Shown one piece after another: positions 6,175 through 46,600 of a DNA stretch of 64,000 nt (its first letter is position 1; each line of letters begins with the position of its first letter). A program made the position numbers and the translations under genes. This stretch comes from a virus: IMG/VR virus record IMGVR_UViG_3300025941_000016, positions 1 through 64,000 of that record. One strand, written 5' to 3'. Below the pieces are notes generated by a model that was given only the letters and a program-made list of their open reading frames with translations, was not told the origin of the DNA and made no database searches.

Positions 6175-7953
6175 CTAACCAACCTCATCCCAGGCGGGGT
6201 CTGACGGAGGATAGATGTCATAATCCTGCGGCGGTTCGTTGTTCGGGTCGGCCCTGAAAGCCTCGGCGGCAGCGTTGACCTCTAGTTCGGACCACAGCGG
6301 TTGCCACGGCCAGCGGGAACCCCACTGCATAGCCACCGGCCAACCGGACCGCTCATCGCGGTCCCCGCGGAACCGGCCGAGGGTGACCAGCTTCGCCGAG
6401 TCCGGGTGAGGCATTAGCTTGATACCGAACTCGGGCCAGCGCATCCACACGCCCGAGTTCATCGGCCGGAGGTTCCGGCCGTGATTGCCGGACTCCATCG
6501 GCGCATGGGTCTCCAACCACAGGCCGACGTCGAACCGCGAGCGAATCCCATCCAAAATTCGGGCGGTCTCCCCATTGACGGTCTCCGCCTTGCCGCCATC
6601 CTCCAAGTACGCCTTGTACAGCGGCCCGAGGCAGATCAGATCCGGTTCGGTCATCTCGCAGACCTGGTGAAGGCTTTTGAGCCCGGTCGCGGTCCGTAGG
6701 TCGATGCCGCCCGGCTGAGTCCACAGCCAGCAACGTCCGGCCTCGTAGGCACTGTCGAACTCGACCGCTTGAACGATGGACTTGGTTTTGCGGCGGATGT
6801 TGCGGGGCGGGTTCTCCAGGTCGACGATCAACGTCCTGATGGGCGGGATCTTCTCGAAGGTGAACGGGTGGACCCCTTGCGCGGCCATGATCGCGACCTG
6901 GCGGGCCATCTGCGTCTTCCCAGCTCCTTCTGGGGCGACGACGATCACGCGGTCCATCCGCTCCATCAGGTTGGGAATCAGCCAGTCGTACTCGGCCTCT
7001 GGGCTGTTCACGAACTCGTGCAGCTCGAACAGGTCTGAGATCTCCCCGTCCGGCACATCCAGGCCGCCGACCAGTTCCCGGACGAAGGTGACAGCCTGGG
7101 TGCTGTTCTTCTTCGGGTCGTTTGCCACCGCGGCGATCTGCCCGGCGAGGGCCATCAGTGCGGCCCCCATGAGCTGCCGTTCCGTCGGCATCTCGCCGGG
7201 GGGCTCTTCGGTGACCAACGGAATCAGGTCCCGAACACCGAGGCCAGCGCTGACGTGATCATGGAGGTCTTTGTGGTTCGGCGCCACCCACAGGCTCACC
7301 GAGGCGGCATGCTGAGCCACCTGTTCGGCCACCGCATGTGCGTGGATCTTGCCTGGGTCGTCGTTGTCGGCCACGACATGAACCACCGCGCCCGTGAAGA
7401 TCGACGAGTAGTCCCGACGCCACTTGCCGGCGCCCTGGGCGTTGGTCGTGGCGACGTAGCCGATCTTCTCGGCGGCGTGGACGTCCTTCTCGCCTTCGCA
7501 GATCACCACCGGGCGTCCCGCGGCGACAGCTGCGAGGACTTGGGGAAGCTTGTAGATCGGTGGCGTGACCCCACCGAGCCCCCAGACCCACTGATGGCCG
7601 TTCCAATGCTGCTGACGGAAGGTCTTCGGCAGGTAGCGAAGTACCCGGATCGCCGGATTGCCGGCCTCGTCCTCGTAGACGTAGGTCGCTACCGGTGTTC
7701 CGAGACCCTTCGTCTCGCGGGGCGGGAACAAGTCGGCCATCGTCAGCCCAACCGCGGCGACGACCGTTTCGGGTGCGCACCCCCGATGGCAGTTGATCAG
7801 GACATTGCCGTCGGGATTCTTGGAGATCGACAGGGACGGATCGCGGTCACCGTGGGCGTGGGCGTCGGTGGGGCAACGGGCAGCCCAGCCCTGCCCCGAC
7901 GCCCGTACGCCTGTGAAGCGGTCGAGGACACGGCGGGTCAGGTCGTCGGTCAC
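6175..7953 (-). CDS. Bifunctional Toprim primase / RepA-like ATPase
   Basis: 592 residues. An N-terminal CHC2-like zinc finger (C27, H32 or H34, C55, C59) is followed by LTMADLF. Then comes a Toprim domain (ICEGEKD at 151-157; ADNDDPG at 195-201) and a RecA-like AAA_25 domain with Walker A APEGAGKT (340-347) and Walker B LIVDLE (375-380). It would prime DNA synthesis and unwind or load at forks. I chose GTG 7953, which overlaps the upstream stop as GTGA; the frame stays open to 8199 but that extension is low-complexity read-through of the initiator gene. Confidence 0.88.
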   Translation of the reverse strand: MTDDLTRRVLDRFTGVRASGQGWAARCPTDAHAHGDRDPSLSISKNPDGNVLINCHRGCAPETVVAAVGLTMADLFPPRETKGLGTPVATYVYEDEAGNPAIRVLRYLPKTFRQQHWNGHQWVWGLGGVTPPIYKLPQVLAAVAAGRPVVICEGEKDVHAAEKIGYVATTNAQGAGKWRRDYSSIFTGAVVHVVADNDDPGKIHAHAVAEQVAQHAASVSLWVAPNHKDLHDHVSAGLGVRDLIPLVTEEPPGEMPTERQLMGAALMALAGQIAAVANDPKKNSTQAVTFVRELVGGLDVPDGEISDLFELHEFVNSPEAEYDWLIPNLMERMDRVIVVAPEGAGKTQMARQVAIMAAQGVHPFTFEKIPPIRTLIVDLENPPRNIRRKTKSIVQAVEFDSAYEAGRCWLWTQPGGIDLRTATGLKSLHQVCEMTEPDLICLGPLYKAYLEDGGKAETVNGETARILDGIRSRFDVGLWLETHAPMESGNHGRNLRPMNSGVWMRWPEFGIKLMPHPDSAKLVTLGRFRGDRDERSGWPVAMQWGSRWPWQPLWSELEVNAAAEAFRADPNNEPPQDYDIYPPSDPAWDEVG

Positions 7954-8906
7954 CGGTACACCGTCCCGGCGTCCCAACGCTGCCCGACGGCCTTCTGGGC
8001 GGGCTGGGTGCGGCCCCTGGCGTTCGGACCGACCTTGCCTTCGCGGATTTCCTTGAGCACCCAGTTCTGCCAGGTGCGGTTCCAACCCGTCGGCTCGGTC
8101 TTGGTGGCGTCCTTGCCGGTCTTGGCAATCCAGTAGTTCCGGAAGATCGTGAGCGTGAAGCGGATCTCGTCGGTGGTCAGACCCTGCTTGCGTGTCCACT
8201 CGCGGTGGCGCTCATCGGGCGTCCAGTCGGCTGGGAGGCGGATGCCCCGAGTCCGAGCGGACGTGGGGAGATGGATGACCTTGGCCTGAGAACCCTGACC
8301 ACTCCCTCCCGCGTCCTTCTTCGAGAAGCCCAGATCGTCGGGGGCGGGGGCGTTCGCGTCAGCGGCGCCCGGACGGTTTACCTCCGTAGGAGGTACTGGG
8401 TGGTTTAGCTCCGTAGGAGCTATGGATGGTTTGGGTGCCACTTTCGGCACCCCGCTCTGGCCAGAACCGGCACCCCGCTTCGCCAAAACTGGCACCCCGC
8501 TTGGGTGATCAACGGCCACTTCTGGCACCTCGTTGTGGCCACTTTCGGCACCCCGCTTGGCCACTTTCGGCACCCCGCTCTGGCCAGAACCGGCACCCCG
8601 CTTCTGGCGCTTCTGGCGCTTCTTCCGGAGATCTAGATCCCACACCACGGGTCGCTTGTCGGCCGGGTAGTCCTCCACCAATCCTTGATCGCCGCGAACG
8701 GTGATCCCGGCGTCTTCGAGGTACGCCAGCCAGCGCCTCACCGTCCGCTCGCCCATCTGCAAGTGCTCGCCGATCGTGTCCGCCGACGGGTAGGTCCCAC
8801 GCCCGCGTTCGTCGGCCCGCTCGGCGAGGTAGACCAGCACCAGACGTGCGGGCGTGCTGACACAAGGCGCCTGCTGGAGAGCCCACTCAACTGCCTCGAT
8901 GCTCAC
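7950..8906 (-). CDS. Helix-turn-helix replication initiator-like protein
   Basis: 318 residues. Residues 1-90 form a winged helix typical of phage replisome organisers (TYPSADTIGEHLQMGERTVR, RWLAYLEDAGI). The middle (about 95-175) is a low-complexity linker in which KRGA and SGVP alternate; it is encoded by regularly spaced DNA repeats (see 8446-8603) that resemble iterons. The C-terminal domain (DWTPDERHREW...WNRTWQNWVLKE) is typical of replisome-loader proteins. I chose GTG 8906, which overlaps the upstream TGA as GTGA; the longer open frame to 9104 has Arg-rich non-conserved sequence. By analogy with lambda O it could bind its own gene as origin (inference). Confidence 0.8.
   Translation of the reverse strand: MSIEAVEWALQQAPCVSTPARLVLVYLAERADERGRGTYPSADTIGEHLQMGERTVRRWLAYLEDAGITVRGDQGLVEDYPADKRPVVWDLDLRKKRQKRQKRGAGSGQSGVPKVAKRGAESGHNEVPEVAVDHPSGVPVLAKRGAGSGQSGVPKVAPKPSIAPTELNHPVPPTEVNRPGAADANAPAPDDLGFSKKDAGGSGQGSQAKVIHLPTSARTRGIRLPADWTPDERHREWTRKQGLTTDEIRFTLTIFRNYWIAKTGKDATKTEPTGWNRTWQNWVLKEIREGKVGPNARGRTQPAQKAVGQRWDAGTVYR
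8379..8422. repeat. Two adjacent 17-bp palindromes
   Basis: TACCTCCGTAGGAGGTA (8379-8395) and TAGCTCCGTAGGAGCTA (8406-8422) are both perfect 7-bp inverted repeats around GTA, 27 bp start to start, each preceded by GGTT. They differ by one compensated base pair (C/G), which keeps symmetry. They lie inside the initiator gene next to the iteron-like array. They could be binding sites for a dimeric protein or hairpins used at an origin. Confidence 0.75.
8446..8603. repeat. Seven iteron-like repeats; candidate replication origin
   Basis: Core GGCACCCCGCTT recurs at 8446, 8469, 8491, 8524 (variant GGCACCTCGTTG), 8547, 8569 and 8592. Spacings are 23, 22, 33, 23, 22 and 23 bp, about two helical turns. 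Because these steps are not multiples of three, the same DNA word is read in two different frames as KRGA or SGVP. Conservation of the DNA word across frames points to selection on DNA, as for iterons. The array lies in the initiator gene itself. Confidence 0.75.
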
Positions 8907-43650: not shown

Positions 43651-46600
43651 TCAGACCCCTGCGATACGGGCCAGACCGTTGCTGGGGTTACGGCGGTTGT
43701 ACCGGAGGGATTGCTTCTGGGTGGACTTGAAAACCTTCTGGCCGTCGATGACGACATCGGACGCCTGCACCGTCAGGTTGATCGTGATGCCGCCTCCGCC
43801 GCCCGACGGCTGCATCCCCACCCAGCCGCCGGACGCCTTCCCGCCGGCCAGAATCGACTTGGTCTCGTTGGCCGGATGGATGTAGGCGGGTGCGCCGAAC
43901 ACGGCCAGCTCCGGGCCACGCTCACCGACAAGCACCGCCTGGCCGACGGGCGGGGAACCACCCTCGGCAAACGGGGCAATCTTGTTCAGGGTGCCGACGA
44001 ACCCGCCGACCGCCTTGGCGACACCACCGATACCTCCGGTGATGGTGCTGATCGCATGACCGATCGAGTCGAAGATCGGTTTGAGGACACCCCAGATCGT
44101 GGTAACCGTGGTCTTGATCCCACCCCAGATCGTGTCCCAGGTGATTTTGAGGGCGCGGAGCGCGGCACCGATCGCCGTGTCAAGCGCCCCGCCAATCGCG
44201 TTGAACGTCGGCGACAGGAACGACGTCCACACCGTGGACACGGCAGTGTGGATCGCCCCCCAGATCGTATTCCACGTGGTCTGCAAAGCACGCAGCCCAA
44301 ACCCGATCACAGCGTCGAACGCCGAAGCGATCGCATGGAACGTTGGCGACAGGAAACCATTCCAGATCGCGGAGAGGGCTGTTTGAATAGCACCCCACAC
44401 GGCGTTCCATGTCGCCTGGAGCAGACGCAGCCCGAAGCCGATGACCGCGTCGAACGCTGTTGCGATCGCGTGGAACGTGGGCAGCAGTACCGAGTTCCAC
44501 ACAAACGACACGGCGGTGCCAAGCGCCGACCAGATCCCGTTCCAGATCGCCTGAGCTAGGCGAAGGTTACCGATGATGAACGTTTCGACGCCTGAGGCAA
44601 TCGCATGGAAGGCGGGCAGCAGCACCGAGTTCCACACCCAGTTGACTGCGGTTCCGAGCGCATTCCAAACGGTTCGCCAGGCAGTTTCCAGCCAGCGGAT
44701 CGCCGTTCCAATCGTGCCGGTGACGACCGAGGCAACACCCTTGCCGAACGGTTCGAGCACGTTGTGCCAGAACCAGAGGACCGCCTTGCCGATCGCCCGG
44801 TAGGCGATCTCCCAGGCCAGAATCTGCAACCGGATCGGCAGCAGCAGAAGGTTGATCGCCTTCGCGATGGCCTTGAGGATCGGCTCCAGGAAATGCCAGG
44901 TGGCGAGCGCTGCTGTTCTGATCGCACCCCACGTGACCCGGGCCGCGGTCGTCAAAGCGCCTGTAACGGCCCGCCAGGCGGTTTCAACCCCACCCACGGT
45001 CGCCCGAAATGCTGAGACGAACGGGCGAGCGACGGCCGACAGGAATGAGATTGTGGCCCGCCACGCTGTCGACAGTGCCGATCCGACCGCGCGCCAGGCG
45101 GTGACGATCCCACCCCATGCCGCCTTGAGGCCGCCGATCATGCCGTTCCAGCCGGCGACGAAAAACCCGGAGACGGCACGCCACGCGGTTACCAGCGCGC
45201 CGATGGTCGCCGACCAGGCGATTTTGAGTGCGTCCCAGACCGCCAGTGCGGCGGTTTTCATCGCACCCCAGACGGTCGACCAGTGCTTGACGAGTTCGTA
45301 GATGGCGAAACCGAGCAGCGCCAGAGCCGCGACGATGAGAATCACGATCGCTGTGATCGGTGCGGCGGCGACCTCTGCGCCGACCAGGGCAATCCCGAGC
45401 GCAACAACAGCCTCAATCACACCGTAGATCCACATGGCGACGGAAAGTGCCATGAGGGCCGCGAACGCTATAACAATGCCCTTCGTAAGGTTCTGGTGGC
45501 TCGCGAAGAACTTGGCGATCGCTTCTAGCTTCGGAATCAGCCAGTTGCCAAGCTGGATCATCAGCGCCTTGGCGGACATCTCCAGTTGCTTCAACTGCTG
45601 GGAAAACGAGTTCGCCTGCGTGGACGCGAACGCCTTGTTGATGTCGCCGGTCGCGGAGCCGGCAGCCTTGACCTTCTCCGTGTAGACCCCGTAGGCGCCG
45701 ATCATGTCGGAGATCGAGTTGCCGCCCTTGGTCCCGAACATGCTGGTCAGGGCGATCTGCTTCTTCAGATCGGCTTCCTTGCCCGAGCCGTACAGCTTGT
45801 CGAGCGACATCTTGATGTCACCGATAGCCTTCGGCAGGCCGCCTGTCGTAATGTCTTTCGACAGCTTGTCTACGGACAGGCCCATCTCGTTGAAGTATTT
45901 CGGTGCCGTCGCCGCGGGATGCAGCAGATACTTCATAGTGTTCGTCATCGCCGTGCCGGCAGCGGCGCCGCGAAGGTTCATGTCACCGAACAGGGCGAGA
46001 GACGCCGTCACATCGGTGATCGACAGGCCATAGTTCTTCCAGATCGCGACATTGCCCTTGCCGAAGGCGTCGGACATGTCCTGCATCGACATGTCGCCCT
46101 CACCGACAGCAGCAACGAGCTGACCGGCCGCCTTGGAAAGGTTTTCCATCCCGGGCAGGCCGGAGACCATCGCCGCGTCGAGGGCGTTGGTTACGTCGAC
46201 CAGGTTCGCCCCGGAGACCGCGGCGGCCTTACCGGCGATCGTCAGGACATCCATCGCCTTCGGGGCGCTGCTCCCCATCGACTTCGTGGCGGCCTCGACG
46301 TGGAGCAGCGCTTCGGCAAGCGAATCCGGGTCTTGGCCGATTTTGCCGGCCAGGGCGAGCACCTGACCCTTGAGTGCGTTGACCTGTGGCATGGTCATGC
46401 CCAACTGGGAGTTGAGCTTGACCATCTCCTTGTCAAAGTCGGCGGCCATTTTGACCGACTCGGCTCCGACGGCAATGAACGCGACGGCAGACGCTTTACC
46501 GAAGGCGGTGACGGCCTTGCCCATGGCGGCGACGGCCTTCTCCCGCGACGCGGCAATCTTCGCGTCCGCGGCAGCCTGCGCGGCTACCTGGGCGTCGAGA

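Follow-up and report, generated by a model that had tools for sequence, protein, structure and literature searches.

The question raised by this locus is why a phage gene for a replication initiator should carry a short DNA word seven times over, in more than one reading frame, and whether that array is kept for the protein or for the DNA. The gene lies in the first 64,000 nucleotides of IMG/VR record IMGVR_UViG_3300025941_000016, and this whole 64,000-nucleotide stretch is referred to below as the window.

The initiator gene and its neighbors

The initiator gene occupies positions 7950–8906 on the minus strand, starts with GTG, overlaps the upstream ORF by 4 bp and, by ORF analysis and translation, encodes a protein of 318 aa. 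Residues 1–294 match phrog_1032 (replication initiation protein; 9.6e-26). An HTH_36 winged-helix domain, the proposed reader of the repeated word, lies at residues 20–68 (8703–8849, minus strand; Pfam HTH_36, 7.2e-12, 45.4 bits against a cut-off of 25), and the winged-helix fold of this N-terminal domain was predicted by AlphaFold2 with a pLDDT of 93. Toward the C-terminus a DnaT-like domain (PF17948; residues 224–288; 8043–8237, minus strand) is proposed to bind single-stranded DNA. It scored 18.3 bits in the window initiator, under the curated cut-off of 25, which was passed by three homologs (L003, 31.5; L004, 31.6; L006, 26.1). Foldseek recovered no DnaT structure with a C-terminal model of moderate quality and nothing useful was found among its matches, so the holding of single-stranded DNA proposed below for this domain is a weak step. 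At E values up to 5, the only Pfam matches of the window initiator were HTH_36, the weak DnaT match, RP-C and other HTH models, with neither Phage_rep_O nor RepA_N among them. Two O-like phrogs (391 and 678) were matched weakly, through the HTH part of the protein, and no plasmid Rep family was matched.

Downstream of the initiator and in the same operon is a primase/helicase gene (6175–7953, minus strand; phrog_6088, phrog_239, AAA_25), followed by a gene for a DEAD-type helicase. The protein was assigned to the HTH_36/phrog_1032 initiators on its N-terminal domain, its profile match and its neighborhood of replication genes. The HTH initiator is absent from the nearest relatives chosen by primase/helicase, its position being held by other small proteins, and for this reason there is no array from a close relative to be compared. 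Those loci inspected among L304–L327 encode, upstream of the primase/helicase, small proteins (VFDYWV...RDAxHIERFA) instead of the HTH initiator, which is a case of module exchange and perhaps of another initiator type.

An array of iterons in two reading frames

The original prediction described seven copies of one word, with one variant, at steps of 22–23 bp and a single step of 33 bp. A base-by-base check placed the seven words, by their starts on the plus strand, at 8446, 8469, 8491, 8524, 8547, 8569 and 8592 within the minus-strand initiator gene, and the steps were measured as 23, 22, 33, 23, 22 and 23 bp, just as described. All seven words are present, while the mention of one variant was slightly generous: four of the 12-mer copies are exact, two, starting at 8446 and 8569, have the last base changed (GGCACCCCGCTC on the plus strand), and the remaining one, which starts at 8524 (GGCACCTCGTTG on the plus strand), has three mismatches. 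In the direction of the gene, on the minus strand, these are iteron 1 (8592–8603; AAGCGGGGTGCC, read as KRGA), iteron 2 (8569–8580; GAGCGGGGTGCC, SGVP), iteron 3 (8547–8558; AAGCGGGGTGCC, KRGA), the degenerate iteron 4 (8524–8535; CAACGAGGTGCC), iteron 5 at the 33-bp step (8491–8502; AAGCGGGGTGCC, SGVP), iteron 6 (8469–8480; AAGCGGGGTGCC, KRGA) and iteron 7 (8446–8457; GAGCGGGGTGCC, SGVP). The claimed alternation of KRGA and SGVP is thus seen except across the 33-bp step, with the degenerate copy reading NEVP.

The 10-mer core GCGGGGTGCC occurs exactly six times, and no seventh copy was found anywhere in the phage record of 99,986 bp. When the codons of the window linker were shuffled, none of 5000 shuffles gave six copies of any 9-mer, the maximum being three. 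The array also contains near-identical segments in a 45-bp register (for example, 8445–8480 and 8568–8603), and part of it appears to have arisen by in-frame duplication in that register. As 45 is a multiple of 3, such a duplication would copy both frames without selection, and identity within the window is therefore by itself no proof of selection on DNA. In view of this duplication, the original prediction moved too fast in concluding DNA-level selection from a word kept in two frames of the window; it is the comparative data that carry the conclusion. Given these duplications and the 22-bp tandem repeats that occur in unrelated genomes (see below), homologs were needed to settle the question. 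A check by cumulative GC skew, also suggested at the outset, gave no support, with no switch at 8.5 kb. Elsewhere in the window, a 135-bp tandem repeat of 2.1 copies was seen within the tape-measure gene (44195–44482).

Conservation of the DNA word among homologous initiators

From 170 initiator genes, clustering at 70% identity left 50 representatives, with the window excluded, by which relatedness was reduced and not removed; host names of the IMG/VR contigs were inferred from similarity. Exact 6-mer repeats were counted in the 360 nt after the HTH of each representative and compared with codon shuffles. At lag 22 there were 193 repeats against 6.4 expected (21 of the 50 genes), at lag 23 there were 186 against 5.9 (19 of 50) and at lag 24 there were 237 against 10.9 (24 of 50), with most of the other lags not divisible by 3 much nearer background. 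GGGGTG repeats in varying frames were found in the same linker in initiators of Arthrobacter, Gordonia and Pseudomonas phages and in those of Thermobispora and Kineococcus plasmids. The words of individual genes include GGGGTGCC (window), GGGGTGAA, GGGGTGAC, GGGGTGCA, GGGGTGCGA, GGGGAGACA, GGGGGGACA and GGCCGGACA. In a proteobacterial group one word is read as RGA, TGC and GVQ, at steps of 30, 19, 22 and 22 bp, and in Arthrobacter-type genes the word occurs in all three frames. The alignment of homologous initiators that had been proposed as a check bore the idea out, with words of the GGGGTG type recurring about every two helical turns, in all three frames and with differing peptides. Diverged homologs keep word and spacing, which is the opposite of a conserved linker lacking the DNA word, the result that the original prediction had named as counting against it.

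Codon choice follows the DNA word, glycine being GGT in RG and GGG in GV. RG was encoded as CGG GGT in 24 of 42 cases (1.65 expected from the same genes) and GV as GGG GTG in 35 of 65 (6.4 expected from the same genes). Judged from these comparisons, what is conserved in the linker across homologs is the DNA and not the encoded peptide. This is not claimed for a marine, low-GC group of homologs with in-frame steps of 18, 21 and 24 bp, in which the repeats could be protein repeats. Mainly in-frame repeats (18, 21 and 24 bp) at the same linker position were seen in L245, L268, L271, L275 and L283. A pairing of the word with a recognition-helix residue (TVR with GTGC; TVQ or TVH with GTGA) was suggestive by eye and was dropped, because it breaks down in those Arthrobacter genes in which both occur.

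A terminal dyad and a second, strand-specific element

The feature was found to be wider than the array first described: its last copy is a dyad, after which follows a second element confined to one strand (8371–8432), neither of them listed in the original prediction. The dyad, GGGTGCC-gaaagt-GGCACCC, is formed by the last iteron (8433–8452, minus strand) with 7 of 8 pairs, while the internal iterons of the window make weak dyads of 3–5 of 8 pairs. Among homologs the last word is often an inverted repeat, the inner bases of which vary between genes and match within each gene (GGGTGACA/TGTCACCC, GGGTGCA/TGCACCC and GGGAGACA/TGTCTCCC). The two halves covary, with 143 of 184 positions paired in 23 genes compared to 119.5 when halves were swapped between genes; none of 5000 swaps reached the observed pairing and the variable inner positions alone agree. 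The last words for this test were picked by hand, a choice which the exchange test holds constant.

The second element is present in three copies on the minus strand, namely AAACCATCC (8424–8432), at an offset of 21 bp from the start of the last GGGGTG, AAACCACCC (8398–8406) and AAACCGTCC (8371–8379). In most high-GC homologs a sequence RAACC(R)(Y)CC starts at an offset of 20–22 bp, counted in the same way, and the first AACC copy was at +22 in 13 of 24 homologs. Strand bias is pronounced, with 29 sense and 0 antisense copies of the element in the 50 genes and, over the 80 nt scored for AACC, counts of 70 and 3 on the two strands, with steps of 11, 12 and 13. The 29 copies are divided 21, 6 and 2 among the reading frames. 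With 21 in one frame, part of this conservation may be that of the peptide EPS; the 11-bp steps and the reading of RTVLEPSLNRP through three frames argue for conservation at the DNA level.

The same region coincides with an A+T-enriched patch (8374–8433, no strand assigned), which is the proposed unwinding region. Its A+T fractions in 20-nt bins are 0.55, 0.45 and 0.40 against 0.33 for the gene, so that it is enriched for its gene and not A+T-rich in absolute terms. In 24 homologs, the stretch from +20 to +60 exceeded the gene mean in A+T by +0.17 and +0.15, with little excess outside it.

Between copies 1 and 2 of the second element lies a 17-nt hairpin, TAGCTCC-TAC-GGAGCTA (8406–8422, minus strand), and between copies 2 and 3 another, TACCTCC-TAC-GGAGGTA (8379–8395, minus strand). 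RAACC copies 26–28 bp apart were found in the window and in L229, L234, L247 and L253 (gene position about 378–433), and between them is a perfect hairpin of 15–17 nt with a stem of at least 7 pairs and the loop TAC. L241 has a stem of 6 and the loop TTC between its RAACC copies. The stem letters differ between genes yet stay paired. With the hairpin removed, the spacing of the RAACC copies becomes 7–12, depending on the stem extent, and is mostly 9–11; elsewhere the direct spacing is 11–13. Six motif pairs have such a stem, and shuffled spacers reached one in 50 of 6000 trials. As L229, L234 and L247 look like close kin, the hairpin spacing is represented in about three lineages. As a lead and not a result, folding of the hairpins would restore a RAACC spacing of about 11 nt on single-stranded DNA. 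The dyad, the second element and the hairpin spacing are new in this analysis.

Scans of DNA without reference to protein

IMG/VR was scanned for three copies of CGGGGTG spaced by exactly 22 bp. Among the matches listed (80 loci), 76 lay inside an HTH-initiator ORF (E values from 1e-10 down to 1e-38); those of the remaining four were within about 120 bp of a sequence end. Five of the 76 listed matches in such ORFs, which form a Burkholderia-like subfamily (L040, L058, L063, L065 and L075), have the word on the other strand as CACCCCG, again at 22/22 and in all three frames; in these loci RAACC is on the coding strand at 11-bp steps.

A composite of dyad and second element (GGTGACA-N4-TGTCACC-NN-AACC) gave 51 matches. 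For 34 of them the match fell within a detected HTH-initiator ORF, in every case on its sense strand. L408 looks like a truncated initiator, L418 is a divergent one of the HTH type and L425 is unrelated. In the 14 further matches the dyad is at or past the end of a short gene, and in 12 of these the gene is an HTH_36 ORF whose stop TGA forms part of the GGTGACA of the dyad (L409, L410, L416, L420, L423, L431, L440, L445, L446, L452, L456 and L458). Most of the dyad and every RAACC copy are then past the stop of the gene, so in these 12 loci the signature persists beyond the HTH reading frame. By the same test, L414 and L449 had no HTH_36 ORF with its stop in the dyad. In most of the stop-in-dyad loci no further ORF opens before +36, and the candidate start of the next one is near +62 to +66; in L416 another frame is open past the stop, its likely start being downstream. 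The proteins of these loci are short and HTH_36-only, with the C-terminal domain seemingly absent. A window-type composite scan gave three matches, among them L459, an open frame which is initiator-like by eye and was left unscored by the family profiles.

Scanning genome contigs for GCGGGGTGC at 22–23 bp gave 23 matches, none of them in an HTH-initiator ORF; those inspected were near-identical tandem repeats and were taken as background. In the Chloroploca loci L211, L215 and L221, GCGGGGTGCC occurs as tandem repeats at 22 bp with more flanking arrays, outside HTH-initiator ORFs. When spacing was allowed to vary (12–40 bp) in newly added loci, 64 arrays were obtained; 14 of them fell within HTH ORFs, and in these the commonest steps were 22, 23 and 33 bp. 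The remaining arrays have steps of mainly 12, 15, 18, 24 and 30 bp and look like coding or simple repeats.

Function of the conserved DNA

The sequence comparisons show, at initiator genes, conserved DNA phased to two helical turns together with a dyad and a one-strand, A+T-enriched element. This DNA is very probably the replication origin of the phage, lying within the very gene that encodes its initiator. The layout is that of a lambda-like origin, with phased repeats inside the initiator gene and an adjoining A+T-enriched region, and we infer from it that the initiator protein binds its own gene.

It should be considered that the site might be an operator, at which the protein binds the iterons in its own gene and represses or blocks the replication operon, the true origin being elsewhere. 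A fold search with the winged-helix model gave generic winged-helix matches, most like transcriptional regulators, the array is inside a co-oriented operon, and the comparative data establish conservation of DNA and not which function that DNA has. However, an A+T patch and one-strand 11-mers at a fixed distance are features of an origin, the partner genes are replicative and no promoter-like site was detected near the array, which makes an operator unlikely.

Far less probable is that the array is simply a low-complexity coding linker in which slippage and in-frame duplication made the repeats, with no role for the DNA. The 45-bp-register duplication in the window, the simple tandem repeats of this core at 22 bp in unrelated genomes and the in-frame repeats of some homologs would all fit this reading, but it is already contradicted by the comparative sequences. 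Of 50 diverged genes, 21 have repeats at lag 22 and 19 at lag 23, the word is used in all three frames, codon choice follows it, the dyad halves covary and the signature runs on past the stop codon of the HTH gene.

There is an equally slight chance that the dyad and hairpins act in mRNA, on translation, stability or termination. The window hairpins are strong (z = −3.85, folded as single-stranded DNA) and both the dyad and the hairpin stems have compensatory changes, whereas the internal repeats are helically phased yet form weak hairpins, no match to Rfam was obtained and no terminator-like site was found inside the array. A partition or centromere-like site can practically be dismissed, as the family is annotated as replication initiator, its neighbors are primase/helicase genes and no ParA-like gene was noticed in passing, although centromere-binding winged-helix proteins (5k5o, 4rs8) were among the weak fold matches.

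For the origin, the following sequence of events is proposed. Initiator molecules, probably paired as dimers, would bind the seven 22–23-bp iterons through their winged-helix N-termini on one face of the helix, and the loaded array, ending at the strong dyad, would destabilize the roughly 40-bp A+T-enriched patch beside it. Once open, the coding strand would expose the RAACC repeats in a register of about 11 nt, where the DnaT-like C-terminus may hold them as single-stranded DNA; the DNA-binding domain of Escherichia coli DnaT binds single-stranded DNA and forms filaments (PMC4132743). The downstream primase/helicase would be loaded next. Reading in several frames would be a by-product of helical phasing: two-turn phasing needs steps of 22 and 23 bp, neither of them divisible by 3, and so the linker peptide has to accommodate whichever frame results. 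A bolder and doubtful extension of this scheme is that one polypeptide might read two codes in its own gene, the 22-bp iterons as double-stranded DNA by the winged helix and the RAACC 11-mers on one strand by the DnaT-like domain, with hairpins restoring the spacing.

If the origin reading is true, the origin would be predictable to the base pair from sequence alone in a large number of phages of Actinobacteria and Proteobacteria, most of them unstudied, and in some plasmids of these bacteria. Cultured phages of Arthrobacter and Gordonia are included, with the initiator encoded by gene 45 in Arthrobacter phage Abidatro and by gene 42 in Galaxy. The locus would also be a clear example from nature of helical phasing taking precedence over the reading frame and would add a second, strand-specific origin element, for which the hairpin spacing suggests action as single-stranded DNA.

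Comparison with known replication systems

A literature search, with most subscription papers outside its reach, turned up no description of the word and its reading in several frames, nor of the covarying dyad or the RAACC element, and an intragenic origin built on a lambda-like plan in a different initiator family is apparently undescribed. In RepA_N plasmids such as pSK41 the iterons lie in the rep coding region and are bound by an N-terminal winged helix. The window initiator differs in having no RepA_N Pfam match and, in fold, no more than a weak and generic resemblance (4pql, rank 20, which we take to be a RepA domain). The iterons of plasmids RK2 and F lie outside the rep gene. The plan of the window resembles that of oriV of RK2 (TrfA) and of the F origin, which combine iterons with short A+T-rich repeats bound on one strand only, TrfA of RK2 binding a single strand of the A+T-rich 13-mers beside its iterons (PMC4081077). 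However, plasmid iterons bind initiator monomers (PMC5043065), and the window initiator belongs to no plasmid Rep family that could be matched.

Among phages, repeats within an O-like initiator gene have been reported for Pseudomonas phage MD8 (PMC8508860), a likeness to the window, with no word, spacing, dyad or second element given for them in the passages concerned. For mycobacteriophage RepA, another initiator, the origin is suspected to lie within or just upstream of repA, where no flanking repeats were identified (PMC7157519). In phage SPP1, oriL is located in gene 38 and has direct repeats bound by gp38 and an A+T-rich unwinding element (PMC6316719). Here too the repeats are within the gene of the origin-binding protein itself, but host group and helicase-loader partners are different, and the likeness drawn here is one of layout.

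A close parallel is lambda, in which 19-bp inverted-repeat iterons inside O are bound by O dimers, beside a 40-bp A+T region (PMC5043065, PMC7466680). The likeness to lambda O/ori-lambda, as originally proposed, holds in layout and extends to the Stx lambdoid phages, which likewise have an origin within the initiator gene, several dyad iterons that bind initiator dimers and an adjoining A+T-rich region of about 40 bp; in the window it is the last iteron that forms a clear dyad, those inside the array pairing weakly. In contrast to lambda, the window initiator combines HTH_36 with a DnaT-like domain and has no Phage_rep_O match, its word is of the GGGGTG type at 22–23-bp steps and not the lambda word, RAACC repeats are present on one strand and the gene stands beside a primase/helicase. 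With this layout and no Phage_rep_O match, the window origin would work like ori-lambda while belonging outside the lambda O family.
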